DNA of 64,000 nt, from assembly GCA_016222825.1 (NCBI GenBank), contig JACRQF010000025.1, positions 28,244 through 92,243 on the forward strand, given 5' to 3'. The notes beneath the pieces are model-generated. The model worked only from the letters and a program-made list of their open reading frames with translations, ran no database searches and was not told the origin of the DNA. This DNA is from Verrucomicrobiota bacterium (GTDB lineage: Bacteria > Verrucomicrobiota > Verrucomicrobiia > CAIQCK01). This document shows, in pieces, positions 46,359 to 64,000 of this stretch (positions are counted from its first letter, which is position 1; each line of letters starts with the position of its first letter). A program made the translations under genes and the position numbers.

Positions 46359-46895
46359 TCAGACCTTCTCGACTTTTTCGTAAACGACAAGTTCGTCGCG
46401 ACCGGTCAGGTCCTGGGGATGATAACGGGGGATGGGAAGCTCGATCTGCTTGAACTTCACAGGCGCGGTCTTCTTGTCCACGAGGCCGACGGCGACGGCG
46501 ACACCATAGATGATCGCCTCCGGCCGCGGCGGACAACCGGGGATGTAGAAGTTCACGGGCACGACCTTCTCGACGGGACCGAGGACGGAGTAGCTGTCGA
46601 ACCAGATGCCGCCGCCGCAGGCGCAGGAGCCGATGGCGAAGACGAGCTTCGGCGCGGGCATGGCGTCGTAAGCGCGCTTGAGGGCCTGCGCGGTGGAACG
46701 CATCGCCGGCCCCTGGCAAAGCATCACGTCGGCGTGGCGTGGCGAGCCGACGAGCTTGATACCGAAACGCTCGACGTCATAGTAGGGCGTGAGGACGTTG
46801 AGCACCTCGATGTCGCAGCCGTTGCAGCCGCCGCTGTTGGCGTGATAGACCCACAGCGACCGGCCGAACATTTTCTGGCAAAGGTTCTTCAACAT
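46359..46895 (-). CDS. Group 4-type [NiFe] hydrogenase small subunit (HycG/HyfI-like)
   Basis: 'NSGGCNGCDIEVLNVLTPYYDVERFGIKLVGSPRHADVMLCQGP', 'FAIGSCACGGG', 'FYIPGCPPRPEAIIYGV'. Confidence 0.9.
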   Translation of the reverse strand: MLKNLCQKMFGRSLWVYHANSGGCNGCDIEVLNVLTPYYDVERFGIKLVGSPRHADVMLCQGPAMRSTAQALKRAYDAMPAPKLVFAIGSCACGGGIWFDSYSVLGPVEKVVPVNFYIPGCPPRPEAIIYGVAVAVGLVDKKTAPVKFKQIELPIPRYHPQDLTGRDELVVYEKVEKV

Positions 46896-46901
46896 GACGG
46901 C

Positions 46902-47426
46902 TCAGTCCATTTCGATCTTGATGTCGTCCACGGCCGGCTCGGTTTCGAGATACGACTTGGAGCGGAAGACCCAACGCTCGTGGGCCACGTCGTCCACGCG
47001 GTAGCCTTTCAGCTTCAGTTGCTCCAGCGCTGACGGTTCCTTGAAACAACGGCCGCACCGCTGGCAGGTGCTCATGAACAACTCGACCCGCTGCTGGATG
47101 TCGCCGATGGCGTTCGTGCCAGTCTCGAACTCGTGGCTCATCGTAATCGCCTTCTCCGGGCACACATCGGCGCAACGGCCACAGTAGGTGCAGCGCCGGC
47201 CGAGGTATTGGACAATGCGAATTTCCTGGCAAAGGTCGAAGAGAAGAATTTCGCGCGCGGGGCAGTTGTTGGCGCAACCACCGCAGCCGGTGCATTTGGC
47301 GGCGTCAAAGAGCGGCCGGCCACGGAACTTCTCCGGCACCGGTTGCGACTTCACCGGATACGGCAGCGTCACGCGACCCGCCTTCAGGCAGACAACCGCT
47401 TCCTGTAGTTTGCTCAAGACAGACAT
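46902..47426 (-). CDS. 4Fe-4S ferredoxin-type hydrogenase subunit (HycF/HyfH-like)
   Basis: 'CTGCGGCANNCPAREI', 'CTYCGRCADVCPEKAI'. Confidence 0.88.
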   Translation of the reverse strand: MSVLSKLQEAVVCLKAGRVTLPYPVKSQPVPEKFRGRPLFDAAKCTGCGGCANNCPAREILLFDLCQEIRIVQYLGRRCTYCGRCADVCPEKAITMSHEFETGTNAIGDIQQRVELFMSTCQRCGRCFKEPSALEQLKLKGYRVDDVAHERWVFRSKSYLETEPAVDDIKIEMD

Positions 47427-47435
47427 GCGTTCACC

Positions 47436-48356
47436 TCAATATCCATAGCTCGCCAACACCAACGCGACCAACGCCACCGCCAGCAGCGCCGCGAAGTAGC
47501 GGATGGCCTGGTCAATCCGGTAGCGCGCGTGCGTCGCCGCCACCAACGTCACCAACAGCACGAGACCCGAGACCTTCGCCCAGAACACCAGCCAGCCCAG
47601 CGGGAACATCAGGCCCGTGCCCCACGGCACAAACAGCGTCACGAAGAGCGCGCTGTAGATGACGAGCTTCGCCATCTGCGCATATTTGAAAAGCGCCAGC
47701 TTCGGCCCGGAGTATTCCATCAGCGGGCCTTCCATGATTTCCGTTTCCGCCTCGGAGATGTCGAACGGCACACGCTGGACGAACGCCTGGAACGACAGCA
47801 GCATCACGCCGCACATGATGACACCCGACCACGGAAACGCGGTGCTCGCGTAAACGGAGCCGTTCAGCACCGTGTCGAGCCGGAACGATTGCGTATGCAC
47901 CGCGCCGACGACGATGGCGACCGCAAACAGCGGCTCCAGCGCGATCATCGTCATCATCTCGCGGCTGATGCCGAGCAACGAGTAAGTGGAACCGGCCGCG
48001 AGGCCCGCCAACAGCGTGCAAATGCCGCAGAGCGTCAGCAGGTAAATCAGCAGAATCACGTCGCCAGCGGCGTTCATCGGCGCGGCGAAGCCCATCGGCA
48101 CGAGACACGCCACCGTCAGCACCGACGCCAACGACAAGTAAACCGCGAACCGCTGCATGAGCGGCGACTCGCCCGATTCGATGTCCTCCTTGCCGAGGAG
48201 CTTTAGCAGGTCGAAGTAAGGCTGCAAGAGCGGCGGGCCCTGGCGCGATTGGATGAGCGCGGTGATCTTGCGCAGCACGCCCTGGAAGAACGGCGCGAGC
48301 AGCAGCACGATGACCACGTTCGCCACACCGCCGAGGATGGAGAGGAGCGTCTTCAT
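47436..48356 (-). CDS. Membrane subunit, NuoH/HycD/HyfC-like
   Basis: 'KITALIQSRQGPPLLQPYFDLLKLLGKEDI', 'PFDISEAETEIMEGPLMEYSGPKLALFKYAQMAKL'. Confidence 0.9.
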   Translation of the reverse strand: MKTLLSILGGVANVVIVLLLAPFFQGVLRKITALIQSRQGPPLLQPYFDLLKLLGKEDIESGESPLMQRFAVYLSLASVLTVACLVPMGFAAPMNAAGDVILLIYLLTLCGICTLLAGLAAGSTYSLLGISREMMTMIALEPLFAVAIVVGAVHTQSFRLDTVLNGSVYASTAFPWSGVIMCGVMLLSFQAFVQRVPFDISEAETEIMEGPLMEYSGPKLALFKYAQMAKLVIYSALFVTLFVPWGTGLMFPLGWLVFWAKVSGLVLLVTLVAATHARYRIDQAIRYFAALLAVALVALVLASYGY

Positions 48357-50056
48357 GCTTTCTTCGTCCTCGTCAGCTTCAACAACTCGTCCTGCGTCCA
48401 GACCTTCGTCGCGCCGGACTTGAGGTCAATCGTCTCCAGCCGGTCCGTGCAGGAGAAACACGGGTCAATGCTGCCGAGCGAGATCGTCATGTCGGCGAGC
48501 TGCTGGTCCTTGATCATCGCCGGAATGCCCTGAAGGTTCTGATACGTCGGCGCGCGCACGCGCCAGCGGCGCGGCCGGTTGTTCTCGCCGGTGATGACGA
48601 AGTGATGGCTCTCGCCGCGCGGCGCTTCGACGGATGACAGGCCCAGTCGGCCCACGGGCAGTTCGTCCTTGATCGTCAACTGGAGCGGCCCGTCTTCCAT
48701 CTTTTCCAGACACTGGCGGATGATCTTGATGGACTCGAAAACTTCCTTCGCCCGCACCAGCACGCGCGACCAGACGTCGCAACCGCCTTCGGTGATGACC
48801 TCAAAATCGAGACGATCGTAGGCGGCATACGGATGGTCGCGCCGGCAATCAATGTCCACGCCCGCCGCGCGCGCCACGGGACCAACCAGCCCCATGTTCT
48901 TCACGAGCGCCCGGTCTGCGACGCCGATGCCGTGCGTGCGCTTCTGGATGTTCTTGTCCTTGCTGACGGCGGCGACGACCGGCGTCCACTCGGCTTCGAG
49001 CTTGTCGAGCAGCTTGCGCAGCTCGTTCTTCACTTCCGGCGTGATGTCCCAGCGCACGCCGCCGATGACGCAAAGCGCGTAGGTCTTGCGATTGCCGCTG
49101 ATTTTCTCCGCGATCCACATGATCGGTTCGCGGATGCGCCAGCTCTGCATGAAGAGCGTGTCGAAGCCGACGATGTGGCAAGCAAGGCCGACCCAGAGCA
49201 AGTGGCTGTGCAGGCGCTCGATCTCCAACATGATGGTGCGGATGTATTCGGCGCGCGGCGGCGGCTTGATGGCGGCGGCGCTCTCGACGGCCTGCGCGTA
49301 GGCGACGTTGTGCACACAACCGCAGATGCCGCAGATGCGCTCGGCCATCATCGGGATGTCATTGTAGGTGAGCACCGACTCGGCGAGCTTCTCGATGCCG
49401 CGATGGACCATGAAGCCGCGATATTCGCAGCCGCGCACCATCTCGCCCTCGATGTAGAGCCGGAAGTGCGCCGGCTCGTCGAGCGTCGGATGGAACGGCC
49501 CGAACGGCACCACCGTGCAGCCCTCCGGCGGATCGTCAAACTTGAACTCGCGCGTGTCGTCGTAGCCTTCAGGCACCTGGTTCCACGCGAAATCCTTCCG
49601 CAGCGGATGCGCGCCGTCGGGCCAGCCGTCGGGCAGCACGAGGCGTTTCAGGTAACGATGGCCCACCGGTTCGATGCCGATGAGGTCGTGGATTTCGCGC
49701 TCGGCCCAGTTCGCAGCCGGCACCACGTCGGAGATGCTGTCCACCTGAGGGTTGTCCGCCGGCACGTGCGCGAGCACGCTGCAAAGCAGATGGTCCTCGT
49801 CGAACGCGAAATCGTGCGCGACCATGAACTGCCCGGAGAACGGCCGGTCGTCCATGCCGATGCCGATGACGTAGCGGGCGTTGAGGTCGCGGAAAAGGAA
49901 CTGGCAGACGGCCTTCAGCGCCGACGCCTCGACGAAGACGAACAGGCGTTCGTCGCAAGGCATGTCGGCCCGCTGGACCGCGGGGCCAAACTTCTCTTTC
50001 AACTGATTCAGTTTCTCTCGTGCGACCATGTAAAGTCTTCCTTCATCATTTGCCAT
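48353..50056 (-). CDS. Group 4-type [NiFe] hydrogenase large subunit with fused NuoC-like N-terminus (HycE/HyfG-like)
   Basis: NuoC-like segment 'NWAEREIHDLIGIEPVGHRYLKRLVLPDGWPDGAHPLRKDF'; L1 motif MAERICGICGCVHN; L2 motif IDPCFSCTDR. Confidence 0.93.
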   Translation of the reverse strand: MANDEGRLYMVAREKLNQLKEKFGPAVQRADMPCDERLFVFVEASALKAVCQFLFRDLNARYVIGIGMDDRPFSGQFMVAHDFAFDEDHLLCSVLAHVPADNPQVDSISDVVPAANWAEREIHDLIGIEPVGHRYLKRLVLPDGWPDGAHPLRKDFAWNQVPEGYDDTREFKFDDPPEGCTVVPFGPFHPTLDEPAHFRLYIEGEMVRGCEYRGFMVHRGIEKLAESVLTYNDIPMMAERICGICGCVHNVAYAQAVESAAAIKPPPRAEYIRTIMLEIERLHSHLLWVGLACHIVGFDTLFMQSWRIREPIMWIAEKISGNRKTYALCVIGGVRWDITPEVKNELRKLLDKLEAEWTPVVAAVSKDKNIQKRTHGIGVADRALVKNMGLVGPVARAAGVDIDCRRDHPYAAYDRLDFEVITEGGCDVWSRVLVRAKEVFESIKIIRQCLEKMEDGPLQLTIKDELPVGRLGLSSVEAPRGESHHFVITGENNRPRRWRVRAPTYQNLQGIPAMIKDQQLADMTISLGSIDPCFSCTDRLETIDLKSGATKVWTQDELLKLTRTKKA

Positions 50057-51968
50057 CGGACACCGGCACCGGCTCCGTCTGCGGACGCGGCGCGCCGCCC
50101 ATCCAGTTCACGTAGCGTTTCAGTTCAGCGTAAAAACCGCGGGCGCGATAACGGTGCATGTCGGCTTCGCGCGCGTAACCGCAGAGCCAGGGCTTCGCGG
50201 AGCGCCGCTGTGAACCGCCGAGCTTGGCGACGCGGCGCGTCACAAGAAACATCGCCACCAAGACGAACGCGAGGAATACCGGCACGTAGATGAACTCCTG
50301 GTTCATACTGCCGAGACCCGCCCAACCGCCCGAAGGCAACGGCGGCGTCGAGGCGATCAGTTCGCCGAAACCGTGGCGGCTTCCTTCCATCGCGCGGTGA
50401 ATCAACGAAATCGGCAACACCGGCAACAAGCCGAACACGACACAGACAAACGCCAGCACGACCTGCGGCACGCGCATCTTCCAGCCAACTTCCAGCCGGC
50501 GATGCTTGTGCGTCCGCTCCGCCACGATCGCGCTCGTCCGCGACAGGAACATCACGCCGAAGAACTTGATGAACAGCGCCAGCGTGATCGCGCTGGTGAT
50601 AATTGCCACCATTGCGCACAACGGCAGCAGCCGGCACGCGGAGTTGCCCTGGATGGCCGCGGTGAAGAGGCCCCACTTGCTGGCGAAGCCACTGAAGAGC
50701 GGCACGCCCGCGATCGAGAACGACGCGATGAGCGCCGTCACCGCCGTCACCGGCATATAGCGCATGAGACCGCCGAGCTTGTTCAAATCCTGCGTGGCGG
50801 TGGCGTGGAGCACGGAGCCGGCGTTGAGGAACAAAAGGCTCTTGAAGACGCCGTGGTTGAGCGTATGGAAGAGCGCGCCGTAAAACGCCGCCACGCCGAG
50901 CGCCGACACCGCGCAGTCCGTTGAGCCGATTAGGGTCATGCAGACGCCCAGACCGAACAGGATGTAACCGCCCTGGCCGATGGTGGAGAACGCCAGCAGC
51001 CGCTTCGACAAATCCTGCCGCAACGCCTGCACCGTGCCGGTGAACAGGGTGATCGTGCCGAGCAACATCACAACGACGCCCCAGTAGTGAACCGGATAGT
51101 CCACGCAAGCCTTGGCGGGCACGAGCCAGAGGAAGCAGCGCATCAAGCCATACACGCCGGTCTTGATCATCACGCCAGAAAGCATCGCGCTCACCGGCGA
51201 CGGCGCAGCCGGATGCGCGTCTGGCAACCAAATCTGCCCGAACGGCCACATGCCCATCTTGATACCGAAGCCGACGAAGAACAGTGCCAGCGCCGTCGCG
51301 ACGGTGCCGGGATGTTTGAGCAAGAGCATCGGCAGGTGGCCGCTAATGTTGCCGAAGTCATACCTGAACATCGGCGGAATGCTCGACGGCCCGCTCGCGT
51401 TGACGAGCAACTGCGCGCCGATCATGCTCACGGCGCAGGCGATCTGCATCATGATCATGAACTTTTTGGCGGCGCGGAGCCGGCCGGGGTTCATCGGGTC
51501 AAACCGGATGAGCGTGTAGCCCGCCAGCGTCATCATCTGCCAGAAGATGAAGAAAAACCACATCATGTCCGTCGTGCTCACCAAGCCATACATCGCGGTG
51601 ATAAACATGAGGAAATCCGGATAGTAACGCCCTTTGCCGTGCTCCAGATGGTGCTGCATGTATTCGATGGAGTAGAGCGCGGCGGGAATCGCAACGGTCG
51701 CGATTAGGGCAAGAAACACGGCACTCAGACCATCCACATGCAACCGCAACGCGAAGCCGAGCGACGGCACTTCGAGGCACGTGACCGGTTCGCCGGGGCC
51801 GAACATGAGCACGCTGCCAACGCCCGCCATCACCAGCAGACTCGACACAACTACTGTGGCGAACGCAATCCACCCGACGACGGGCTTGCGTCCTCCGGTC
51901 CAAGTCGCCAGCGCCCCGCTGAGACAAACCAGCATGGCGGCGGTAACGGCATGTTCGGCGGCTATCAT
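50046..51968 (-). CDS. Proton antiporter-like membrane subunit (NuoL/HycC/HyfB-like), copy 2
   Basis: 'KMGMWPFGQIWLPDAHPAAPSPVSAMLSGVMIKTGVYGLMR', 'TLNHGVFKSLLFLNAGSVLHATATQDLNKLGGL'. Confidence 0.93.
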   Translation of the reverse strand: MIAAEHAVTAAMLVCLSGALATWTGGRKPVVGWIAFATVVVSSLLVMAGVGSVLMFGPGEPVTCLEVPSLGFALRLHVDGLSAVFLALIATVAIPAALYSIEYMQHHLEHGKGRYYPDFLMFITAMYGLVSTTDMMWFFFIFWQMMTLAGYTLIRFDPMNPGRLRAAKKFMIMMQIACAVSMIGAQLLVNASGPSSIPPMFRYDFGNISGHLPMLLLKHPGTVATALALFFVGFGIKMGMWPFGQIWLPDAHPAAPSPVSAMLSGVMIKTGVYGLMRCFLWLVPAKACVDYPVHYWGVVVMLLGTITLFTGTVQALRQDLSKRLLAFSTIGQGGYILFGLGVCMTLIGSTDCAVSALGVAAFYGALFHTLNHGVFKSLLFLNAGSVLHATATQDLNKLGGLMRYMPVTAVTALIASFSIAGVPLFSGFASKWGLFTAAIQGNSACRLLPLCAMVAIITSAITLALFIKFFGVMFLSRTSAIVAERTHKHRRLEVGWKMRVPQVVLAFVCVVFGLLPVLPISLIHRAMEGSRHGFGELIASTPPLPSGGWAGLGSMNQEFIYVPVFLAFVLVAMFLVTRRVAKLGGSQRRSAKPWLCGYAREADMHRYRARGFYAELKRYVNWMGGAPRPQTEPVPVSDGK

Positions 51969-51975
51969 AAGTCAG

Positions 51976-53916
51976 TTACTGCAAATTCGTCTGCGGCACG
52001 ACCTGAATCCGGCTGGGCTTGTGCGACGCCGGCATTCCGCCCAGCCAGCGAAAATAGCGTTTGATCTCACCGTAGAAATTGTGCGCCACGTAACGATTCT
52101 GCTCCGTCTCGCCCATGTAGCCGCAGAGCCACGGCGTAGCGGCGCGGCGCGAGGCGCTGCCGAGCTTCGAGATCGCCAGCGCGGCGAGGAACACGATGCC
52201 CAGCACCGCCGCGAGCACAACCGGCGCGAAGAGCGCGGCGGAGTTGATCTGCTGCAAACCGCTCAGCGAGCCACCCATTATCGGCGCAGCCTTCGCCAGC
52301 GCAATGCCGTAGCTGTGCTGGCTGGCGTTCATGGCGGCTTGCATCAGGTTGAATGCGATGACCGGCGCGACGCCGAGCAACACGCAGAGCGCGGCGAGAA
52401 GGACCTGCGGCAATTGCATCATCCAACCGACTTCCAGCCCGCGCCGTTTCGCCGCCTGCACCTTCACAAGCAGGCTGGTGCGGGAGAGGAAGCTGACGCC
52501 GAAGAACTTGATGAACGACGCGAGCGTAAGCGCGCTGGTCAGGATGGCGATGACGGCGCAGACGGCGAGGTATTTCGCCGAGCCGCTGCCCTGCACCGCC
52601 GCGACGTAGATGCTCCACTTGCTGACAAAGCCGTTGAAGAGCGGCACGCCGGAGATCGAGAACGACGCGATGATCGCCGTGATCGCGGTGAGCGGCATGA
52701 ACCGCATCAGCCCGCCCATCTTGTTGAGGTCCTGCGTGCCGGTCGCGTGGAGCATCGAGCCGGCGTTGAGGAAAAGCAGGCCCTTGAAGAGGCCGTGGTT
52801 CAGCACGTGGAAGAGCGCACCGAAGAAAGCGATGGCCGCGAGCACGGCGACGTTCGGGTCTTTCACGGGCAACAGCGCCATGCACGCGCCCGTGCCGAAC
52901 AGGATGTAGCCAATCTGGCCGATGCTGTGGAACGCCAGCAGCCGTTTCGATTGCTCCTGCTTCAGCGCCTGCATCGTGCCGGTAAACAGCGTGATCGTGC
53001 CGAGCACGGCGACGACGAGACCCCATTTCGCGAGCGGGTAATCGGCTTGCGCCGAGGGCGGCACGAGCCATAGGAAATAACGCATCAGGCCGTAAACGCC
53101 GGTCTTGATCATCACGCCGGAGAGCATCGCGCTCACAGGCGACGGCGCGGCCGGATGGGCGTCCGGCAACCAGACCTGGCCAAACGGCCACATGCCCATC
53201 TTGATACCGAAGCCGACGAGGAAGAGCGCGAACGCCAGCGCGGTGACGCCGGGCTTGGCGACGAGCATGACGGGGAGGTTGGCGCAGACGGTGTCGAAGT
53301 CGTATTTCAAGCTCGCGGCGCCGGTCACTTTCGCGCCGGTGACGGCGAGCAACTCCGCGCCAATCATCGTCGCGACGCAGGCGATCTGCATCATGATGAG
53401 GTATTTGTTCGCCGCGCGGATGTTCTCCGGCTTCTTGTTCTCGAACCGGATGAGCGCGTAGCCCGGCAGCGTCATCATCTGCCAGAAGATGAAGAAGAAC
53501 CACATCATGTCCGTCGTGCTGACGAGGCCATACATCGCGGCGAGGAAGAGCAGGAAGTTCGGATAGTAGCGCGCCACGCCGTAATCTTCGTAGTGCCGCA
53601 TGTAGGCGATGGAGTAGAACGCCGCCGGCACCGCGATGAGCGCCGTCAGCATTAGGAACATCGCCGTCAGCCCGTCCACATGGATGCGCAACGCGAAGCC
53701 GAACTTCGGCATCGCCCAAAAAGCCGCCGGATGAGCGGACGGCCCCGCCGCCAGCACCTTCGCCACCGCCGAGAGAATCAGCACCGCCGTCGCCGCCGTC
53801 ACCGCGAACGCCAGCCAACCCGCCGCGGTCTTATTCCGCGACACTAGCAGCGTCAGCACCGCCCCTGCGAGGCAGAGGAGGATGGAGGCAACGACGGCTT
53901 GTTCGGGAGACATCAT
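51976..53916 (-). CDS. Proton antiporter-like membrane subunit (NuoL/HycC/HyfB-like), copy 1
   Basis: 'KMGMWPFGQVWLPDAHPAAPSPVSAMLSGVMIKTGVYGLMRYF', 'VLNHGLFKGLLFLNAGSMLHATGTQDLNKMGGLMRF'. Confidence 0.93.
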   Translation of the reverse strand: MMSPEQAVVASILLCLAGAVLTLLVSRNKTAAGWLAFAVTAATAVLILSAVAKVLAAGPSAHPAAFWAMPKFGFALRIHVDGLTAMFLMLTALIAVPAAFYSIAYMRHYEDYGVARYYPNFLLFLAAMYGLVSTTDMMWFFFIFWQMMTLPGYALIRFENKKPENIRAANKYLIMMQIACVATMIGAELLAVTGAKVTGAASLKYDFDTVCANLPVMLVAKPGVTALAFALFLVGFGIKMGMWPFGQVWLPDAHPAAPSPVSAMLSGVMIKTGVYGLMRYFLWLVPPSAQADYPLAKWGLVVAVLGTITLFTGTMQALKQEQSKRLLAFHSIGQIGYILFGTGACMALLPVKDPNVAVLAAIAFFGALFHVLNHGLFKGLLFLNAGSMLHATGTQDLNKMGGLMRFMPLTAITAIIASFSISGVPLFNGFVSKWSIYVAAVQGSGSAKYLAVCAVIAILTSALTLASFIKFFGVSFLSRTSLLVKVQAAKRRGLEVGWMMQLPQVLLAALCVLLGVAPVIAFNLMQAAMNASQHSYGIALAKAAPIMGGSLSGLQQINSAALFAPVVLAAVLGIVFLAALAISKLGSASRRAATPWLCGYMGETEQNRYVAHNFYGEIKRYFRWLGGMPASHKPSRIQVVPQTNLQ

Positions 53917-54419
53917 GCGGTGGCGTATTGCGTATTGCGTATTGCGTGGGCGGCCATCTCGCTCAATAGGCTCGCAAGTGCGTCGAGCGTGTGGCGAAGC
54001 GTGATCGTCAGATCAACGCCGGGTTTGAGCGACTGCGGCTGGACGCCGAGCAGATGCGCGCGCGTCGGGCTGTTGGATTCGACCCATTTGGCCAGCGTGC
54101 CGAGCGAAATCTTGTGCGTGGAAATCTGCGGGAAGCGCGCCGCCATTTCCTCGGCGTCCAGAAAGACCACCGAGCCGGGCGCACCGCCGAACTCCACCGC
54201 GTCGAGGAAGATCAGCGTGTCGAAACCGCCGTCCGCGACACGGCCAATGAACCGGTCCGGCGTCGTGCCGGCAATGATCACGTCCGGCACGCCCGCAGCA
54301 GCAAGAACTTCTGCCAGGCGAACGCCGAAGCCGTCGTCGCTGTAGTCGGTGTTGCCAAGGCCCATCAGGCAGACGCGGCCGACAAAGCACTGCTCAAGTT
54401 GTTCGCGGAGGTCGGGCAT
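53913..54419 (-). CDS. Hydrogenase maturation protease (HycI/HyaD family)
   Basis: Start MPDLREQLEQCFVGRVCLMGLGNTDYSDDGFGVRLAEVL (GxGNxxxxDDGxG); 'PQISTHKISLGTLAKWVESNSPTRAHLLGVQPQSLKPG'. Confidence 0.9.
   Translation of the reverse strand: MPDLREQLEQCFVGRVCLMGLGNTDYSDDGFGVRLAEVLAAAGVPDVIIAGTTPDRFIGRVADGGFDTLIFLDAVEFGGAPGSVVFLDAEEMAARFPQISTHKISLGTLAKWVESNSPTRAHLLGVQPQSLKPGVDLTITLRHTLDALASLLSEMAAHAIRNTQYATA
53923..53947. repeat. Heptamer tandem repeat (GCGTATT)x3.6
   Basis: GCGTATTGCGTATTGCGTATTGCGT read directly, 7 bp from the start codon of the downstream antiporter gene. Confidence 0.85.
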
Positions 54420-55276
54420 CAGATGTCCTCGCCGAGCTTCTGGATTTGATCGTAGGTGAACACGGGACCGTCCACGCACACGTAGGCGACGCCGATGCAG
54501 CAATGACCGCATTTTCCGACGCCGCACTTCATATAACGTTCCAGCGTCGAGACGATGTTCTTGTCCTGGAAGCCGAGCGCCTTCAGATCCTTGATGACGA
54601 AGCGGAACATGATCGGCGGGCCGCACACGAACGCCACCGTGTCCTCCACCGCCACCTGCACGCCAGGCTTCTTGAAGAGGCTGCCGACGACGCCCACGTT
54701 GCCGGTCCAGCCGTCGGCGGCCCGGTCCACGGTGAGATGGCACTCCACGCCGGCGGACTTCTCCCACTCGCGGAGATTGTCGCGATACATCAGGTCGCGC
54801 GGCGTCTTGGCGCCTAGGAAGATCTGGATGCGCTTGTATTTCTCGCGGTGGGCCAGCGCGTAGATGATGCAGGAGCGCAGCGGAATCAGTCCGATGCCGC
54901 CGGCGACGAAGACGAGGTTCTTCCCGTAATACTCCTCCATCGGGAAGCCGTTGCCGTAGGGGCCGCGCACGGCAAACTTGTCGCCCGGCTTGAGCGCGTG
55001 CAGCGCCGCCGAGCAACTACCGACCTGTTTCACAGTGAAAAAAGTGTCCGCTTCCGTCGGGCTGGGCGGCAGCGAGGCGGGAAATTCGCCAATACCGAAG
55101 AGCGACACCTGCGCGAACTGGCCGGGGCGGAACTTTTTAAACGCCGCCTGCTCGGCCGGGTCCGTGAAGCGCCAATAGAACGTCTTGACCTCGGCGATTT
55201 CGTCCACCACCCGGTCGAGGATCGCGATCTTCGGCAGATAACAGTTGTCAACGGGCGACAGGTTCATGTTTGTCAA
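54419..55276 (-). CDS. FAD/NAD(P)-binding oxidoreductase, sulfhydrogenase gamma (HydG)/AsrB-like
   Basis: 'KFAVRGPYGNGFPMEEYYGKNLVFVAGGIGLIPLRSCI', C-terminal [2Fe-2S] 'MKCGVGKCGHCCIGVAYVCVDGPVFTYDQIQKL'. Confidence 0.9.
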   Translation of the reverse strand: MTNMNLSPVDNCYLPKIAILDRVVDEIAEVKTFYWRFTDPAEQAAFKKFRPGQFAQVSLFGIGEFPASLPPSPTEADTFFTVKQVGSCSAALHALKPGDKFAVRGPYGNGFPMEEYYGKNLVFVAGGIGLIPLRSCIIYALAHREKYKRIQIFLGAKTPRDLMYRDNLREWEKSAGVECHLTVDRAADGWTGNVGVVGSLFKKPGVQVAVEDTVAFVCGPPIMFRFVIKDLKALGFQDKNIVSTLERYMKCGVGKCGHCCIGVAYVCVDGPVFTYDQIQKLGEDI

Positions 55277-56342
55277 CCTCTGCCGTCTCGCGGCGGATCA
55301 TTTCCACGACGCTGGGCATGCCGATGTCACCGTGGCAGACGGCGGCGCAGCGCCCGCAACCGACGCAAGCCATCGAAAGCTCGCGCTGGATGAAGTAATG
55401 CGACAGTTTTCGGAAAAAGCGGCGGTTGCGGCGGTCGTGGACGGCCCGGCGCGGGTTGTGGCCGCCGGCCATGCGCGTGAAGCCGCCGAGCGCGCAAGCG
55501 TCCCAGATGCGGACGCGCTCGACCTCGTCCGGCCCGACCTGACGGTCGCTGACGGTGAAGCAGGTGCAGGCGGGGCAAACATAGGTGCAGCCGCCGCATT
55601 CGAGGCACCGCTTGCCAATTTCCTCCCACGTCTTCTCCTGAATCCGCCCCGCCGACACGTGGCGGATGGCGGCGGAGAACCAACTCGTGGTGGACGGTTT
55701 GAAACTCTTGCGAACCTCGCCGAGGATGGCGCGGCGCTTGGCGACGTGCTCCTCGGTGCCTTTGCGGAAGAACGGTGCGCTGAACAAAGCCTCGCCCGCC
55801 TCCGTGCCGGCCACTGCCATGAATTCGCCGCCGCCGAGGTCCATCAACTGGAGGTCGAAATGCTCGCGCGCGGCCGGGCCGGTGTCGGCGCAGACGCAGA
55901 AACACTCCTCGCCGATGTCACGCGCCGGATCGGTGCAGACGACGTTGACCAAGAACATGTTCTTGCGGCGCTTTTCGTAATAGATGTCGCGATGCTCGCG
56001 GCCCAGGAAGAACCGGTCGAGGTGCCAGATGCCCGCCACGTCGCACGAGCGGATGCCAAAGATGGCGCGTTTCGGCTCGCGGTAGGTCGGCTCGATCTGG
56101 AGGTCGCCATCGCTGCGCTGGACCTTCATCAGCCGCTCAATGTGCGGGAAGATGAACCGCTTCGGCGGATAGTAGGGATTCGGCAGGTGAATCTGAATCT
56201 CGCCGCGGTTCTGGTCGGTGACGCTGTCGTAGCAGGTGTCGCGACCCCGGCCGCCGAACGGCGCGAAAACCTCGTGGCCCTGCTGGCGGAGCAGGTCCAC
56301 GATCTTCAACACGTCGGCGCTGTCGAGGATGCGGGCTTTCAT
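55248..56342 (-). CDS. 4Fe-4S dicluster protein, sulfhydrogenase beta (HydB)/AsrA-like
   Basis: Start MKARILDSADVLKIVDLLRQQGHEVFAPFGGRGRDTCYDSV; 'CLECGGCTYVCPACTCFTVSD', 'CVGCGRCAAVCHGDIGMPSV'. Confidence 0.87.
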   Translation of the reverse strand: MKARILDSADVLKIVDLLRQQGHEVFAPFGGRGRDTCYDSVTDQNRGEIQIHLPNPYYPPKRFIFPHIERLMKVQRSDGDLQIEPTYREPKRAIFGIRSCDVAGIWHLDRFFLGREHRDIYYEKRRKNMFLVNVVCTDPARDIGEECFCVCADTGPAAREHFDLQLMDLGGGEFMAVAGTEAGEALFSAPFFRKGTEEHVAKRRAILGEVRKSFKPSTTSWFSAAIRHVSAGRIQEKTWEEIGKRCLECGGCTYVCPACTCFTVSDRQVGPDEVERVRIWDACALGGFTRMAGGHNPRRAVHDRRNRRFFRKLSHYFIQRELSMACVGCGRCAAVCHGDIGMPSVVEMIRRETAEVDKHEPVAR

Positions 56343-58366
56343 GCAGTCTCCTTCTCCACGCGCACCGGCATGATCTGGTGCCCGCTGTGCGCCCGACCCA
56401 GAATCTGCTTCTGCACCTCGCGGACGAAGAACGGCACGAAGATGGTGCCGCCGCGCACTTCGTGCGTGACACGCGCGGCGGCGACAGCCGAGCCGCTGGC
56501 CGCCCGGAGCCGGATCTTCTCGCCGTCGCGGATGCCGAGCGCCTTGGCGTCGGCGGTGTTGATCTCGACGAAGCCGTCCGGGTAATCGAGCAACAGGATG
56601 CGGTATTCGCGTTTGAGCGTCTCGCTGTGCTGGATCAGGATGTTCTGGTTCCAGTAGTAGAGCGAGTGGCCAAAGACCAGGGTGAACGGGAAATCCTTCG
56701 GCGACACTTCCAGCGCCGGCTTCGGCACCGGCGCGAACTTGAACCGCCGGGCGCCGCTGCCGTCCGCAAACAGAAACTGCGTGCCCAGCGGACGGTCCTT
56801 GGTGCACGGCCACTGGCGGCCGTATGCGCGGGCGAGGTTGTCGTGGCTCGCGCCGCTGTAGAACGGCACCACATCGCCCAGCTCGTCCATGACTTCGGCG
56901 GCGGTCTTGTAGTTCCAGCCCGCGCCCATCGCGCGGCCCACGCGCGCGATTTGCTCCCAGGCCGGTATCGGCCCCGGCGGCGGCTCTATCGCCTGCCGCG
57001 CCAACTGTATCCGCCGGTCGCTACTGGTGAACGACACTTCCTCCTCGCCGAACGCGGACGACGGCAGCACGACGTGCGCAAATTGCGCCGTTCCCGTCAT
57101 GAAGAGGTGCTGCACCACCACCAGGTCGAACTGCCTGAGCGAGTGGGCGGCGTCGCCGAAGAACGCCGTGCTCACTGGATCGTAGCGGCAAAGCCAGAGC
57201 GCCTTCACTTTGCCGCCGCCGCGGTCGCCGAGCAACGAGCGCGCGTTCAAGCCGGGCGCGGCGGGCAGCTTCGTTTTCCAAACCGCCTCGACTTCGGCGC
57301 GGTCGGCGGCGCTGGCCACGGAACGGTAGCCGGGCAGGCGGTCGGGCAGCATGCCCATGTCGCAGACGCCCTGGAGATTGTTGTGCTCGGTGAGCGCATA
57401 GATGCCCGCGCCAGCCTTGCCGAGTTGGCCCGTGAGCAACGCAAGGTTCACGAGCGCCTGAATGCTCTCCGCCTCGCGTGATTCGATGCCGGTGGAGTAG
57501 AGGATGGCCGCAGACTTCGCGCGGGCATAGGCGAGCGCGGCGGCCTCGATGATGTCGGCCGGCACGCCGCAGCCCTCGGCGCCGGCCAGCAGATCGTAGC
57601 CGGCGAGCTGTTCGAGAAACGCCTCGTAATCGCGGCAGTGGGCCTTGATGAACGGCAGGTTCATCAAGCCGCGGTCCACGATGACCTTGGCCATCGCACC
57701 GTAGAGCAGCGTCTCGGTGCCGGGCTTGAGCTGAATGAAATAATCGGCGCTCTCGGCGACGCGATGCTTGCGCGCGTCAATGACAATGAGCTTGGCGCCC
57801 TTGAGCTTGGCGCGGATGACGTGGCCGCCGATGGTCGGCAACTGCCGGCCCAGATCCACGCCATCCACCACCACGACCTCGCTCGAAGCCAGTTCGCCGA
57901 TGGAGTTCGTCGTGGCCGGCACGCCGATCATGTCGAGCAGGACGTTGATGGAGTTGTTGCTATAGACGCCCGTGCCGTGATCCACGTTGTTGGTGCCGAT
58001 GACGGCGCGGGCGAGCTTCTGGAGCAGATAGCTCTCCTCGTTCGAGCAGCGCGGCGAGTTCAGGAACGCCAGCGCGTCCGGGCCGTGCTGGCCGCGGATC
58101 CTCCGCAGCCGATCGGCAATGTAGCCAATCGCTTCATCCCAGCCAACTTCCTCAAACTTGCCGTTCTTGCGGAGCAACGGCTGCTTCAGGCGGTCCAGCG
58201 ACGTGGCTACCTCGTGGACGTTCCAGCCGCGCACGCAGATTTTCCCGTCGTTGGTCGGGTGCGACATGCTGGGATAAACCCCCGCCACAGTGCGGTTATC
58301 TGTTGTCTCCAAGTAGAGACCACATCCCACGCCACAGAACGTGCAGGTTGTCAGCTTGTGCGCCAT
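56339..58366 (-). CDS. Molybdopterin oxidoreductase, formate dehydrogenase alpha-like, without the usual Sec/Cys ligand
   Basis: N-terminal [4Fe-4S] [12 protein letters not shown]...GKICVRG; '[41 protein letters not shown]'; '[27 protein letters not shown]'; C-terminal MPT-binding '[49 protein letters not shown]'. Confidence 0.88.
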   Translation of the reverse strand: [675 protein letters not shown]

Positions 58367-58418: not shown

Positions 58419-59309
58419 TTACACGGCGGCGGCTTTCCTGCAAGCAGCAAGCATCGCCGCCGGCGGCGACAGGAACTCGGTGCCGATGCCCAGCCGCTTG
58501 GCCGGAATGCCCATCGAGAGGCCCATCAGTTGAGTGAAGTAGAAGACCGGCACGGAATACTTCGTCCCGAACTCCGCGTTCACCTGGTCCTGGTAGCATT
58601 CGAGGTTCACTTGGCAGAGCGGGCAGGCGGTCGCAATCACGTCCGCGCCGGAGTCGAGCGCGTTCTGCAACAGGTTGCGCACCATGCTCAGCGCGGCCTG
58701 CCGGTTCGTGATGATGAGCGCCGCGCCGCAACAACGCAGCCGGAGCAGGAAGTCCACCGGTGTCGCGCCGATGGCCGTCATCAGGTCCTCGAAGTAGCGA
58801 GGCTCCTCGACGTTCTCGTGCTCGAACTTCCTCGGCCGCAGGATCTGGCAGCCGTAGTAGGGCGCAACCTTCAGGCCGGTCAGCGGGTTGGTGGCCTTGG
58901 CCTTGACCTCTTTGAGGTCTTCGGAAAACACCTCGATCAGGTGATGCACCTTAATCTTGCCGTCGTAGCGGAGGTTGTCCTCTTCAAGGGCGAAGTTGAT
59001 GTGGTCGGCCAGATCGTGGTCCTTCTTCAGGTGGGCGTTGCAGGCGTGCATGTTCTTGTAGCAGCCGCTGCACGGCGCCACGAGGTCGAGGCCTTCCTTC
59101 TCAGCCATCGCCAGGTTCCGCGCGCAAAGCGTGTGGGCGAGCAGCTCGTCCACGTGGAAATAGGCGGTGGCGCCACAACAGTTCCAGTCCTCCAGCTCCT
59201 TGAGTTCCATGCCCATCACGCGGGCGATCTCGACGGTGGAGAGGTGGTAGCTCTCCGCCATCTTCTCAAGGGAACAGCCTGGGAAATATGCGAACGTCTT
59301 TTTCGTCAT
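58419..59309 (-). CDS. hdrB: Heterodisulfide reductase subunit B-like (HdrB)
   Basis: Two complete CCG domains: 'LEDWNCCGATAYF...APCSGCYKN' and 'RLRCCGAALIITN...ATACPLCQVNL'. Confidence 0.92.
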   Translation of the reverse strand: MTKKTFAYFPGCSLEKMAESYHLSTVEIARVMGMELKELEDWNCCGATAYFHVDELLAHTLCARNLAMAEKEGLDLVAPCSGCYKNMHACNAHLKKDHDLADHINFALEEDNLRYDGKIKVHHLIEVFSEDLKEVKAKATNPLTGLKVAPYYGCQILRPRKFEHENVEEPRYFEDLMTAIGATPVDFLLRLRCCGAALIITNRQAALSMVRNLLQNALDSGADVIATACPLCQVNLECYQDQVNAEFGTKYSVPVFYFTQLMGLSMGIPAKRLGIGTEFLSPPAAMLAACRKAAAV

Positions 59310-59313
59310 TAAC

Positions 59314-59871
59314 TTAGTCTCCGATCGGGATGATGCGTTTGATCATCCGTTTGAAATTCTCCAGCCGCTTGATGCGCGCCGGCAGGACGGGGAGGCGGCC
59401 TTTGAGCATGAGCATCGTGGCGTTTTGCGCCTCGGACAGCATTTCCTTCAGGCCGAGCGTGAAGAAGTAGCTGGTGGCCAGCACCGGCTCGTAGCTGCGG
59501 CCGGTGCGCACGATGTTCTTGACAAAGGTTTCGGAGAACGCCGGGCCGATGAGGTCCTCGGGATACTGGTTCTTCCAGATGGTGTAGCGCTTCAGGCCAT
59601 ACATCAGCTCCGCGATGTCAATGCCGCGCGGGCAGCGCACGGTGCATTGGTAACAGGAGGCGCAATACCAGAAGGCGCGGGTGGCCATGACTTTGTCCTT
59701 GAAGCCGGCGTCAATCATGCGGATGAGGCGCTGGGGCCGCACGTCCATGAAGTCGCCGACAGGGCAGGTGCCGGAGCAGGTGCCGCATTGCATGCAGGCG
59801 CTGACGGGCGTGCCGCCCGCCGCGTGGAGCAAGTTGCCAATCTCCTGGCTGAATGTGACTGTCGTTGCCAT
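59314..59871 (-). CDS. hdrC: Heterodisulfide reductase subunit C-like (HdrC)
   Basis: 'CMQCGTCSGTCPVGDFMDVRPQRLIRMI', 'CASCYQCTVRCPRGIDIAELMYGLKRY'. Confidence 0.92.
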   Translation of the reverse strand: MATTVTFSQEIGNLLHAAGGTPVSACMQCGTCSGTCPVGDFMDVRPQRLIRMIDAGFKDKVMATRAFWYCASCYQCTVRCPRGIDIAELMYGLKRYTIWKNQYPEDLIGPAFSETFVKNIVRTGRSYEPVLATSYFFTLGLKEMLSEAQNATMLMLKGRLPVLPARIKRLENFKRMIKRIIPIGD

Positions 59872-59878
59872 AGGGTTC

Positions 59879-60295
59879 CTATTTCTTTTTCTTGGCCTCG
59901 GAGGACTTGATGAGCGCGCTGACCTTGTCGAGCAGCAGTTTGGGCTCGACGGGCTTCTCGATCAGCTCGTCCACGTCCACAAAGTTCGGATGCACCGCGC
60001 CGCCGGGGAACAGGAACGCCATCTGTTCGCGGATGCTGGTGATGATCAGGACGGGCAGTTCACGGAATTTCGCGTCCTTGCCGAGCTTGCGGGCGATCAT
60101 GATGCCCTCGGCGCCGCGGCCCATCATCACGTCGAGCAGCAGCAGGTCGTATTTGTTCTTCTCCAGGGCGGCCCAGCCGTCCTTCGGGTTGTGGGCCATG
60201 TCCACCTTGTATTTGGCCTTCACGAGGATGGATTTGATCCCCTCCGCGAAATCGGGATCGTCGTCAATGATCAGCAACTGTTTCTGTTCGCTCAT
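59879..60295 (-). CDS. Single-domain response regulator
   Basis: 'KQLLIIDDDPDFAEGIKSILVKAKYKVDMAHNPKDGWAALEKNKYDLLLLDVMMG...PVLIITSI...FVDVDELIEKPVEPKLLLDKV'. Confidence 0.92.
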   Translation of the reverse strand: MSEQKQLLIIDDDPDFAEGIKSILVKAKYKVDMAHNPKDGWAALEKNKYDLLLLDVMMGRGAEGIMIARKLGKDAKFRELPVLIITSIREQMAFLFPGGAVHPNFVDVDELIEKPVEPKLLLDKVSALIKSSEAKKKK

Positions 60296-60310
60296 GGTAT
60301 GGTCTCCTTT

Positions 60311-61402
60311 TCAAGTTTTCGCCGGCAGGCGAATGGTAAATTTGCTTCCTTTGCCCGGCTCGCTCTCCACGGCCACCGAACCACCGTGGGCCTCGACGAT
60401 GCGCCGGCTGATCGCCAAGCCCAATCCGCAACCGCTCTCCATCTGCGCCGCGCCTTTGCCGCGGTAGAAATCACCGAAGATGAACGGCAGGTCTTCCTTG
60501 GCGATGCCCACGCCACCGTCGGCCACCGAGATGACCACCTCGCCGGCCGCTGCTTCGGCCGCCAACCGAACGGTCGTCTGCGGCTTGGAGTATTTGACCG
60601 CGTTGTTGAGAATGTTGCCAATGACCTCCGTGAGGCTCACCGCGTCGCCCGACAACATCGGCAGTGAATCGCCAACGGTGCTGACGAGTTCGATGTTCTT
60701 GCGCGTCGCGTGCGGCAGGACATTCTCGACGGCCTTCGTGATGACCGTCGGCACAGCGACCGGCTGGAACTGCTCCTTGATCTTGTTCACGTCCACCGTA
60801 AAGACCCGCAGCCAGTTGTGGATGAGCTTCAGCAAATCGTCAAGCCGACCTTTCATCCGCTCCGTGCGCGCCTTCTGCTCCTCGGTCATCTTGTCTTCGA
60901 GGTCGGCAGCCAGGCCGAAGAGGTGTTGCTGGAGCGCGCTCAGCGGCGATTTGAGTTCATGCGAGAGGATGGCGGCGAAATTCTCGCGGAGCATTTCCTT
61001 CTCGCGGCGCAACGCGATCGCCTCCTGCACGAGCCGGTGTTTTTCGAGACCGCGCTTGGTGATGAGGCGCAGTTCGTCGGGCGTGAACGGCTTGGGCAGG
61101 AAATCGTAGGCGCCCTTCTTCATCGCGTCCACGGCCGAACTGACCGTGGCGTAGCCCGTGATGACGATGGCGACCTGGTTCGGGTCCATCGCGCGGAGAC
61201 GCTCCAACACCTCGAAGCCGGAGATGCCGGGCATCTTCAGGTCCACAAAGATGAGGTCCGGCCCGAACTCGCGCACCATGCCCAGCCCGGCAATGCCGTT
61301 GCTGGCCGTGGCGATCTTGAAGCCGGCCGGCTCCAACACGAGTTTGCAGGAGTCCAGCACGACTTCCTCGTCATCAATAATCAATATCTTCGTTTCTTGC
61401 AT
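60311..61402 (-). CDS. Hybrid receiver-histidine kinase (REC-HisKA-HATPase)
   Basis: N-terminal REC 'TKILIIDDEEVVLDSCKLVLE...FVDLKMPGISGFEVLERL', H-box 'NFAAILSHELKSPLSALQQH', G-box 'GCGLGLAISRRIVEAHGG'. Confidence 0.93.
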   Translation of the reverse strand: MQETKILIIDDEEVVLDSCKLVLEPAGFKIATASNGIAGLGMVREFGPDLIFVDLKMPGISGFEVLERLRAMDPNQVAIVITGYATVSSAVDAMKKGAYDFLPKPFTPDELRLITKRGLEKHRLVQEAIALRREKEMLRENFAAILSHELKSPLSALQQHLFGLAADLEDKMTEEQKARTERMKGRLDDLLKLIHNWLRVFTVDVNKIKEQFQPVAVPTVITKAVENVLPHATRKNIELVSTVGDSLPMLSGDAVSLTEVIGNILNNAVKYSKPQTTVRLAAEAAAGEVVISVADGGVGIAKEDLPFIFGDFYRGKGAAQMESGCGLGLAISRRIVEAHGGSVAVESEPGKGSKFTIRLPAKT

Positions 61403-61405
61403 CGG

Positions 61406-63409
61406 CTAAGCTTTATTCAGGTCCCGCGCCGGCAGACGGATGATGAACGTTGCGCCCTTGCCGACTTCGCTTTCCACCGCGATGGTCCCATCATGTTCTT
61501 TCACGATACCAGAGCTGATGGCCAGGCCCAAGCCGGTTCCGTGGCCGACTTCCTTGGTCGTGAAGAACGGATCAAAAACACGTTCGATATTCTCCTCGCT
61601 GATGCCGTGGCCGGAATCGGCGAAGAAAATCTCGGCGTAGTCGCCGTCCGGCTCCAGCCGCGTCGTCAAATCGAGCCGGCCTTTGCCGTCCATCGCCTCG
61701 GCGGCATTGATAATGAGATTCATGAACACTTGCTGGATGAGCGCCGGATCGGCGATCACCAGCGGCAGGTCTCTCTGGAAGTTTTTCTCGACCTTGATGT
61801 TGTGGAACAGCGCCTGGTTTTCCACCAACGACACGCACTCCTGAAGCACGAGGTTGAGGTTGCAGGAACGCTTGTCCGGCTTCTTCGGCCGCGAGAAATC
61901 CAGCAGGCCACGCACAATGCCCCGGCAACGGTCCGCCTGCGTGGCGATCTTGCGAAGAAATTCCTTGGTGCTGTCCCGGACATCGCCATTCTCCAGCAGC
62001 AGGTGCGAGTAGGTCACGATGCCGGTGAGCGGGTTGTTCATCTCGTGGGCGACGCCAGCCGCCAACTGGCCGATGACGGCGAGCCGCTCGGACTGCATGA
62101 TCTTCCGGCGGGCGAACTCCTTGAGTTTTTCGTCGCGCTTCTTCAGCGAGGACGCCATGGAGTTGAAGGTGTCGGCCAGTTCGTGCAGTTCGTCCTGCGA
62201 AGCGATCTCCACGCGGGCATCAAGGTTGCCGCGCGCGACCTCGCGCGAGGCCAGCACCAGCTTGTGCACCGACACCGAGATGTTCCGGGCGATGAAGTAA
62301 AAGAGACACATCGAAGCCGCGCCTCCCGCCAGCGTAATCCCAATGAACGCCGCCGCGGCGCGCGACCGGGTGTCGGTGTATTTCTGCTCGCGGACGCCGA
62401 CGTAAAGCATGCCGACGATCCTGTTGACCACGTCGCGGATCGGCTCGTAGGCGGTGATATACCAGGCGTTGACGACGTAGGCCCGGCCAATCCAACGTTC
62501 GCCCTGTTTGACCACGTGGTCATACACGTCCTGCGCTGCGCGTGTGCCAATCGCTCGCGCGCCGGTTTCGTTCTGGACGTTGGTGGAGATGCGGAGATCG
62601 TCCTGGAAGATCGTCGCCGAGCCGATTTCCTCGCCCTGATACTTCACGTCCTGGAAGACGGTCTGCTTGATCTTGTCCACGATCTCAAAGTTGCGGTTCA
62701 GCAGGACGCCGCCGTAAGCGACGCCAATGAACTGGTTCTTTATGTCAAAGATCGGCGCGGCCGCCTTCAGCATCAGCCCGGAGGTTTCCTCGCGCTCGGC
62801 GCGCGGCCGGGACTTCGGCGTGGGCGCGACCTCAAACCGCGCGCGCTCCGCCAGCGCCGGCGATTCCTTGCGCAGTTCGTCGCCGCTGACAAGACAGGTG
62901 GACGCCGCCGGCTCCCGGCTCTGCAACACACGTGCGATCAGCGGGTCCCGCACCTGGTCGTCGCCGAAGACCGCCGGGTTGGTCACGCGCACCACTACCG
63001 CGCCTTTCGCGTCCGTCACACCCAGCACATCCAGCCGCTCGCGCTCGCGAAAGGCCGCCAGCGTCTCGACCACTTTGTCACGGTCCTTGGCGGAAGAGCC
63101 GTCGCGCACAAACGTCCGGCCGGCCACGAACCGCACCTTGTCGCCGATCCGGTCGAGGTGATTGAGATAAATCTCGCGCGCGACGTTGAGGTCGGTGCGG
63201 ACCTTCTCCTGTGCCTCGTCCACGACCAGACCGCCAATGATATGGACGCCGATGACACCGAACGTGATGCCGACGATCAGGCACACGAGCAGGAAGCCCG
63301 CAATGAGCTTGGTCGCGATGGTGAGACGCACGCGGCGAAGGGCTGCCAGCGAAAGACCACCGGCGGCTGCTTCAGCCTTTGGCGCGTTGGGCTGGCTGAC
63401 CGTGCTCAC
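61406..63409 (-). CDS. Membrane sensor histidine kinase with extracytoplasmic Cache-like domain, HAMP, HisKA, HATPase
   Basis: N-terminal TM, periplasmic Cache-like region, HAMP, 'LAVIGQLAAGVAHEMNNPLTGIVTYSHLL', 'DSGHGISEENIERVFDPFFTTKEVGHGTGLGLAISSGIV'. Confidence 0.93.
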   Translation of the reverse strand: MSTVSQPNAPKAEAAAGGLSLAALRRVRLTIATKLIAGFLLVCLIVGITFGVIGVHIIGGLVVDEAQEKVRTDLNVAREIYLNHLDRIGDKVRFVAGRTFVRDGSSAKDRDKVVETLAAFRERERLDVLGVTDAKGAVVVRVTNPAVFGDDQVRDPLIARVLQSREPAASTCLVSGDELRKESPALAERARFEVAPTPKSRPRAEREETSGLMLKAAAPIFDIKNQFIGVAYGGVLLNRNFEIVDKIKQTVFQDVKYQGEEIGSATIFQDDLRISTNVQNETGARAIGTRAAQDVYDHVVKQGERWIGRAYVVNAWYITAYEPIRDVVNRIVGMLYVGVREQKYTDTRSRAAAAFIGITLAGGAASMCLFYFIARNISVSVHKLVLASREVARGNLDARVEIASQDELHELADTFNSMASSLKKRDEKLKEFARRKIMQSERLAVIGQLAAGVAHEMNNPLTGIVTYSHLLLENGDVRDSTKEFLRKIATQADRCRGIVRGLLDFSRPKKPDKRSCNLNLVLQECVSLVENQALFHNIKVEKNFQRDLPLVIADPALIQQVFMNLIINAAEAMDGKGRLDLTTRLEPDGDYAEIFFADSGHGISEENIERVFDPFFTTKEVGHGTGLGLAISSGIVKEHDGTIAVESEVGKGATFIIRLPARDLNKA

Positions 63410-63529: not shown

Positions 63530-64000
63530 TCAGACCTGGGCCAGCACGCCTTCGATCTCGCTGAAGATCTCCTCGTCCTCGAACAGGTTCTGTTTGATCG
63601 AACCGGACGGGCAGCTCGCCACGCACGTGCCGCAGCCCTTGCAGAGCGCCTCGTTGATGACGGCCTTCTTCTTGGCCTCCTCGAACGTGATCGCCGTGTA
63701 GGGGCAGAGCGGGACGCACGATTTGCAGCCGCTGCACTCCTCTTCGATGATGAACGCCGTGTTCGGCTCCTGCTCGACGTGGCCCTTGTCAATCAGCGCC
63801 ATCGCCTCGGCCGCCGCCGCGCCAGCTTGCGCGACCGTGTCGGGAATGTCCTTCGGCGCCTGGCAGGCGCCGGCGATGAACACGCCGTCGGTGAAGGTGC
63901 TCACCGGCGCGAGCTTCGGGTGCCGCTCCAGGAAGAAACCTTCCGAGCCGCAGCTCATGTTGAACATCCGGCGCACGTCCTGCGCGTCGGGCTGCGGCTC
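63530..64000 (-). CDS. hdrA: Heterodisulfide reductase subunit A-like (HdrA), C-terminal part, runs off right edge
   Basis: 'FTDGVFIAGACQAPKDIPDTVAQAGAAAAEAMALI' and two 4Fe-4S motifs 'CSGCKSCVPLCPYTAIT', 'CKGCGTCVASCPSGSI'; frame open to the window end. Confidence 0.9.
   Translation of the reverse strand, partial: EPQPDAQDVRRMFNMSCGSEGFFLERHPKLAPVSTFTDGVFIAGACQAPKDIPDTVAQAGAAAAEAMALIDKGHVEQEPNTAFIIEEECSGCKSCVPLCPYTAITFEEAKKKAVINEALCKGCGTCVASCPSGSIKQNLFEDEEIFSEIEGVLAQV

Follow-up and report, generated by a model that had tools for sequence, protein, structure and literature searches.

Does a formate dehydrogenase (FDH)-like subunit that has exchanged its catalytic residues still carry out chemistry at molybdenum or tungsten, or does it serve its complex in another way? 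The question is raised by a gene in a 64,000-nucleotide stretch of DNA from a Verrucomicrobiota bacterium (hereafter the window, meaning the whole stretch that was analyzed). The gene (56339–58366, minus strand) encodes an FdhF-like subunit of 675 residues, here termed FdhX, in which Tyr135, Ser136, and Thr326 replace Sec or Cys, His, and Arg, respectively. An earlier note on this DNA had offered two alternatives: a non-formate Mo/W reaction, or an electron-transfer/scaffold subunit that had lost FDH catalysis. Our analysis supports the latter, while the former is disfavored by the lack of cofactor markers in most carriers. We assign a probability of roughly 0.78 to FdhX being a molybdenum-free, NuoG-like, electron-conducting scaffold that connects an energy-converting [NiFe] hydrogenase with an NAD(P)H module.

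Active-site residues of FdhX

The 40-residue segment of interest spans residues 120–159 of the FdhX open reading frame. FdhX comprises three Pfam domains of molybdopterin oxidoreductases and no others, and a phmmer search against the Protein Data Bank returned the FdhF subunit of hydrogen-dependent CO2 reductase (HDCR) as its best match. The catalytic loop aligned without gaps to HDCR FdhF, F420-FDH, and ForCE1, placing Tyr135 and Ser136 in the Cys/Sec and His columns, respectively (codons at 57962–57964 and 57959–57961, together 57959–57964, minus strand). When FdhX was aligned by MAFFT with E. coli FdhF and 33 further FDH-type sequences, Tyr135 fell on residue 140 and Thr326 on Arg333. The Tyr and Ser substitutions described in the earlier note were thus confirmed, while the loss of the third catalytic residue, Arg333, had been overlooked. 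Characterized FDHs keep the Cys/Sec and Arg residues, together with His or, in ForCE, Gln; their active sites fall into classes with C/U-H and RGQ, RGE, or RGH, or with C/U-Q and RGH (PMC8808070). FdhX lies outside all of these classes, with YS and TEH in the window and Y[CSGR] and [TA]E[HQ] in its clade. No Cys or Sec metal ligand was found in FdhX, that position being occupied by Tyr135.

Named genomes were scanned once with an alignment of 13 sequences, which yielded about 45 FdhX relatives at 55–91% identity, with the next matches falling to ~35%. Their record titles, in which the label of a single bin may be wrong, name Verrucomicrobiota, Acidobacteriota, Methylomirabilota, Lentisphaerae, a Phycisphaeraceae, a Chthonomonadales, and an Anaeromyxobacter. 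FdhX forms one clade in the tree (support 100/100). Across the 44 aligned members, the Sec/Cys column contains Tyr (41), Phe (2), or His (1), and never Cys or Sec. Because Tyr, Phe, or His fills this column in 44/44 members, the Tyr–Ser pair reflects neither sequencing error nor chance. The Arg333 column reads Thr (33), Ala (7), Ser (2), Cys, or Met, and the Gly that follows Arg333 is Glu in all 44. At the His column we found Cys (23), Ser (10), Arg (6), Gly (2), Thr, Val, and Ala, with no His. Conservation of the Tyr–Ser pair among homologues, which the earlier note had proposed as a check, extends to Tyr (41/44) and not to Ser (10/44). That note would also have counted a Cys elsewhere in the loop against its reading. 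Many relatives do have Tyr–Cys; because the residue-136 position varies freely among the 44 aligned members, this Cys is not an essential ligand. A one-residue register shift, with the Cys of the Tyr–Cys relatives as ligand, was rejected since the position is variable and the window has Ser.

To describe the remainder of the site, we compared 87 columns that were at least 90% conserved in the FDH-type MAFFT set and either clearly kept or clearly lost in FdhX. FdhX retains 65 and replaces 22, among them K44, R138, U140, N176, H181, R333, G334, G402, D429, and R581. The molybdopterin-binding regions had been judged intact, and these replacements show otherwise. Lys44, a pterin-contact residue, is Arg46 in FdhX; our literature search for the names of pterin-contacting residues found none. 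The N-terminal [4Fe-4S] motif is intact, as previously claimed, with C8, C11, C15, and C44 all present. Separately, in one relative (L014/L062, genome G030) Ser replaces the fourth cluster cysteine of FdhX, at position 44, which points to an altered or lost [4Fe-4S] cluster. Given L014/L062, the cluster may not be essential in every relative.

The hydrogenase operon

Downstream of FdhX, with all genes on the minus strand, the operon continues with a sulfhydrogenase-beta/AsrA-like iron-sulfur subunit (ShyB-like, 364 residues, 55248–56342, match 9nez_B), the start of which overlaps the FdhX stop and in which 16 of 17 Cys are invariant. It is followed by a sulfhydrogenase-gamma-like FAD/NAD(P) subunit with an Fe–S domain (ShyC-like, 54419–55276, match 9nez_C), a HycI-type hydrogenase maturation protease (53913–54419), and two HyfB/antiporter-like membrane subunits (51976–53916 and 50046–51968). 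The remaining genes encode a HycE-like [NiFe] large subunit with fused NuoC/D and the motifs RICGICG and DPCFSC (48353–50056; 7z0s_E, 430 bits), a NuoH/HycD-like membrane subunit (47436–48356), a HycF/NuoI-like ferredoxin subunit (46902–47426; 7z0s_F), and a NuoB/HycG-like small subunit (46359–46895; 6cfw_J, 7z0s_G). Where the flanking sequence is long enough, nearly all relatives show the same gene order, the number of HyfB genes being one or two; at L063/L064, no HyfB gene was detected. The Ni ligand motifs are invariant in readable HycE homologues (n = 40 for the first motif, n = 39 for the second). In the class, 22 of 385 genomes carry FdhX, and the set with a HycE homologue at 67% identity or more coincides exactly with these 22; two further genomes have only distant HycE homologues (34–35%).

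Every component expected of a group 4a-like formate hydrogenlyase (FHL) was found, namely a CxxC...DPCxxC large subunit, HycF, HycG, membrane subunits, and HycI, except for a catalytic formate dehydrogenase subunit. From group 3b sulfhydrogenase, the beta and gamma subunits are present and the alpha/delta NiFe subunits are not, as the hydrogenase subunits are of the FHL/Mbh type. The constant partner of FdhX is an FHL-like hydrogenase together with sulfhydrogenase-type beta/gamma subunits. We found no specific published account of this operon in the literature searched, which does not disprove that one exists. Reading of translations only places a group 3-type (HoxH-like) NiFe large-subunit gene ~2 kb upstream of FdhX at L059 and L069, and PFOR-like and dihydroorotate dehydrogenase-like genes directly upstream at L046 (6446–9990, plus strand).

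Upstream of FdhX, the window encodes accessory HdrB-like (CCG domains, 58419–59309) and HdrC-like ferredoxin (59314–59871) proteins and the C-terminal part of an HdrA-like subunit (63530–64000, translation read by eye), which is cut by the window and contig end; all are on the minus strand. Genes for a response regulator, a receiver-histidine kinase, and a sensor kinase lie between HdrA and HdrC (59879–63409, minus strand), and the same two-component cassette is found at L033, L034, L035, and L042. A placement of HdrABC and the cassette ahead of FdhX was confined to the window's genus and one close relative, L042, and Hdr was therefore rejected as the defining partner. Of the Hdr/hydrogenase complex envisaged in the earlier note, the hydrogenase proved constant and Hdr an extra confined to the window's family.

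It is conceivable that the physiological electron partner is not NAD(P)H but ferredoxin or Hdr, leaving ShyB and ShyC with some other role. HdrABC adjoins FdhX in the window's genus, FdhA–Hdr complexes are known in methanogens (7bkb), and one relative has a PFOR-like gene upstream of FdhX. However, ShyB and ShyC are found in every operon with enough flank, and Hdr in few, which makes this alternative unlikely in our view.

Relation to NuoG

Another alternative concerns the origin of FdhX, which could share its losses with NuoG. FdhX would then belong to the NuoG lineage, its hydrogenase being complex I-like, and would not stem from an independent degeneration of FdhF. A forced clade of FdhX and Nitrospirota complex I NuoG was not rejected (p-AU 0.22), and Nitrospirota NuoG (36%) ranks with the nearest sequences outside the clade. 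The free tree, however, separates FdhX from NuoG. FdhX also scores 572 bits with the Fdh-alpha model (TIGR01591; 571.9 bits, under the curated cutoff of 666.25), compared with 114–117 for NuoG models. The N-terminal [2Fe-2S] and further Fe–S domains of NuoG are missing from FdhX, which opens directly at its CTFCGVGC [4Fe-4S] motif. The best-matching folds are those of FDHs: an AlphaFold model from 36 clade sequences (mean pLDDT 82, pTM 0.85, with low confidence in the N-terminal cluster region and residues 329–333) gave ForCE1, Rhodobacter FDH (RaFDH), and E. coli FdhF (1fdi) as its top Foldseek matches. We consider descent from the NuoG lineage improbable, although to be kept in mind. Score, domain make-up, and the free tree favor, but do not prove, an origin independent of NuoG.

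Nitrospirota loci L095, L105, and L108 were rejected as further hydrogenase-linked cases, being complex I with the Ni ligands absent. A Dehalococcoidia NuoG-like protein with NuoE/NuoF-like neighbors (L099:9335-12004) also has Tyr–Ser at the Sec/Cys–His positions (SRLYSAAT).

Molybdenum-cofactor supply and selection

We surveyed cofactor genes in 22 FdhX-carrier genomes of the class, 16 of good quality. In these mostly metagenome-assembled genomes, where gene absences rest on completeness estimates, MoaC was found in 7/22 and MoeA in the same 7, both being absent from the other 15. The markers are lacking in 10 of the 16 good-quality carriers; the chance of at least 10 misses in 16 is ~4e-7, assuming independence and a 10% miss rate per gene cluster. 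MoaA agreed with MoaC/MoeA in the 14 carriers tested, and only one of the 14 carries FdhD. As a positive control, all 15 genomes of the same class that carry a catalytic-type FDH (C-H, C-Q, or Sec-H; loci L017–L031) contained FdhD and MoaA. HypD, which is needed for NiFe maturation, was found in 21/22 carriers and in 16/16 of those of good quality. The window's genome has MoaA, MoaC, and MoeA, and FdhD was not found in it. As far as these markers go, its own FdhX copy may hold a cofactor; by homology to its marker-negative relatives, it would be cofactor-free. One genome, G006, has a second FDH-like frame (C98:2037-3965) that is 39% identical and contains one in-frame TGA, a possible selenocysteine; FdhD was not detected in this genome, which is 89% complete.

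FdhX could still be a Mo/W-bisPGD enzyme that acts on another substrate, its metal being bound by Tyr or by no protein ligand at all. The FDH fold, the 65/87 retained columns, the near constancy of Tyr135, and the MoaA/MoaC/MoeA genes of the window's genome are in keeping with such an enzyme. Against it, the FdhX loop does not differ between marker-positive carriers and the 15 marker-negative ones, three of which belong to the window's genus and hold copies at 87–91% identity. Lys44 is replaced by Arg, as are several other FDH-conserved positions by other residues, and we regard a Mo/W-dependent reaction as very unlikely. Formate oxidation through an unusual active site has ForCE1/2 as its precedent, in which Gln stands for His and activity persists (PMC8808070), and the operon resembles that of formate hydrogenlyase; yet ForCE keeps the Cys and Arg that are both gone in FdhX, and FdhD is as rare in carriers as it is universal in the catalytic-FDH genomes, leaving this reading with next to no credit. 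Nor is FdhX at all plausible as a decaying pseudogene left in the operon, despite the loss of all three catalytic residues: its dN/dS within the window's genus (0.10–0.13) is similar to that of HycE (0.08–0.11) and indicates purifying selection, all complete copies are open over their full length, ~115 columns are invariant across 36 sequences, and FdhX and HycE co-occur completely.

Proposed role of FdhX

FdhX is probably an electron-passing scaffold, because its catalytic parts are lost and yet it is kept across phyla, including in bacteria that lack the markers of cofactor synthesis. We propose that it descended from an FdhF-type formate dehydrogenase fold and no longer carries a Mo or W cofactor. 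Seated in a membrane-bound, formate-hydrogenlyase-like [NiFe] hydrogenase, it would have a structural role and also conduct electrons, with a single N-terminal [4Fe-4S] cluster, and would in this be the counterpart of NuoG in complex I. Electrons would travel between NAD(P)H, at the ShyC-like FAD subunit, and the NiFe site of the HycE-like subunit by way of the ShyB-like Fe–S subunit, the cluster in FdhX, and then the HycF-like and HycG-like Fe–S subunits, with homology to sulfhydrogenase gamma pointing to the use of NAD(P)H. The HyfB/NuoH membrane arm would couple this flow to ion movement. In the window's genus, HdrABC may dock to add a second electron entry or exit. For NAD(P)H to drive H2 evolution, H2 would have to be low or an ion gradient would have to contribute; reduction of NAD(P)+ by H2, in the opposite direction, is just as conceivable.

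These results suggest that bacteria of soil, sediment, and groundwater possess an uncharacterized membrane-bound hydrogenase linked to NAD(P)H. More tentatively, at somewhat under even odds, FdhX may record a second, independent NuoG-like step: an FHL-like FdhF would have lost its metal site and become a fixed bridge to a sulfhydrogenase-derived NAD(P)H module, giving a complex I-like energy-converting NAD(P)H:H2 oxidoreductase that occurs in several phyla and is readily mistaken in annotation for a formate-linked system. The complex I step, with a dead formate dehydrogenase as the bridge, is usually known from one lineage, and FdhX provides a natural parallel against which to ask how complex I acquired its NADH-input arm.

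Comparison with known systems

In fold, domain order, and single N-terminal [4Fe-4S] cluster, FdhX matches the FdhF subunits of E. coli formate hydrogenlyase-1 (1aa6/1fdi, 7z0t) and HDCR (7qv7), which also share a hydrogenase operon with HycE/HycF/HycG/HyfB-type partners. FdhX differs from them in lacking the Sec/Cys, His, and Arg at the metal site, in the change of Lys44 to Arg, and in that its carriers are mostly without FdhD and molybdenum-cofactor genes. Complex I NuoG is likewise a degenerate FDH-like protein without a metal cofactor, positioned between an NAD(P)H module and a NuoI/B/D-type arm; FdhX, by contrast, lacks the N-terminal Fe–S domains, scores far better as Fdh-alpha, and precedes a large subunit that retains its Ni ligands. 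In Pyrococcus sulfhydrogenase I (9nez), the module for NAD(P)H input consists of homologues of ShyB and ShyC; these beta/gamma subunits serve a soluble group 3b NiFe hydrogenase there, whereas here they stand beside FdhX and a group 4-type hydrogenase of the membrane. HydDB group 4f, described as 'formate-coupled (putative)' (PMC5037454), resembles this system, as compared by description, in pairing a group 4-type hydrogenase with a formate-dehydrogenase-like neighbor. The FDH-like subunit here argues against formate coupling, a warning that formate metabolism should not be read from FdhX operons.

The FdhF-like domain of StnC in the Stn transhydrogenase is also catalytically inactive and serves structure and electron transfer, although StnC belongs to a soluble bifurcating transhydrogenase, is fused to a GltD-like domain, and has no group 4 hydrogenase (PMC10482914). 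Inactive FdhF-like scaffolds are thus already known from NuoG and StnC (PMC10482914). What appears to be new is an inactive FdhF-type subunit without the N-terminal domains of NuoG, fixed in an FHL-like [NiFe] operon with sulfhydrogenase beta/gamma subunits, in genomes without molybdenum-cofactor genes.
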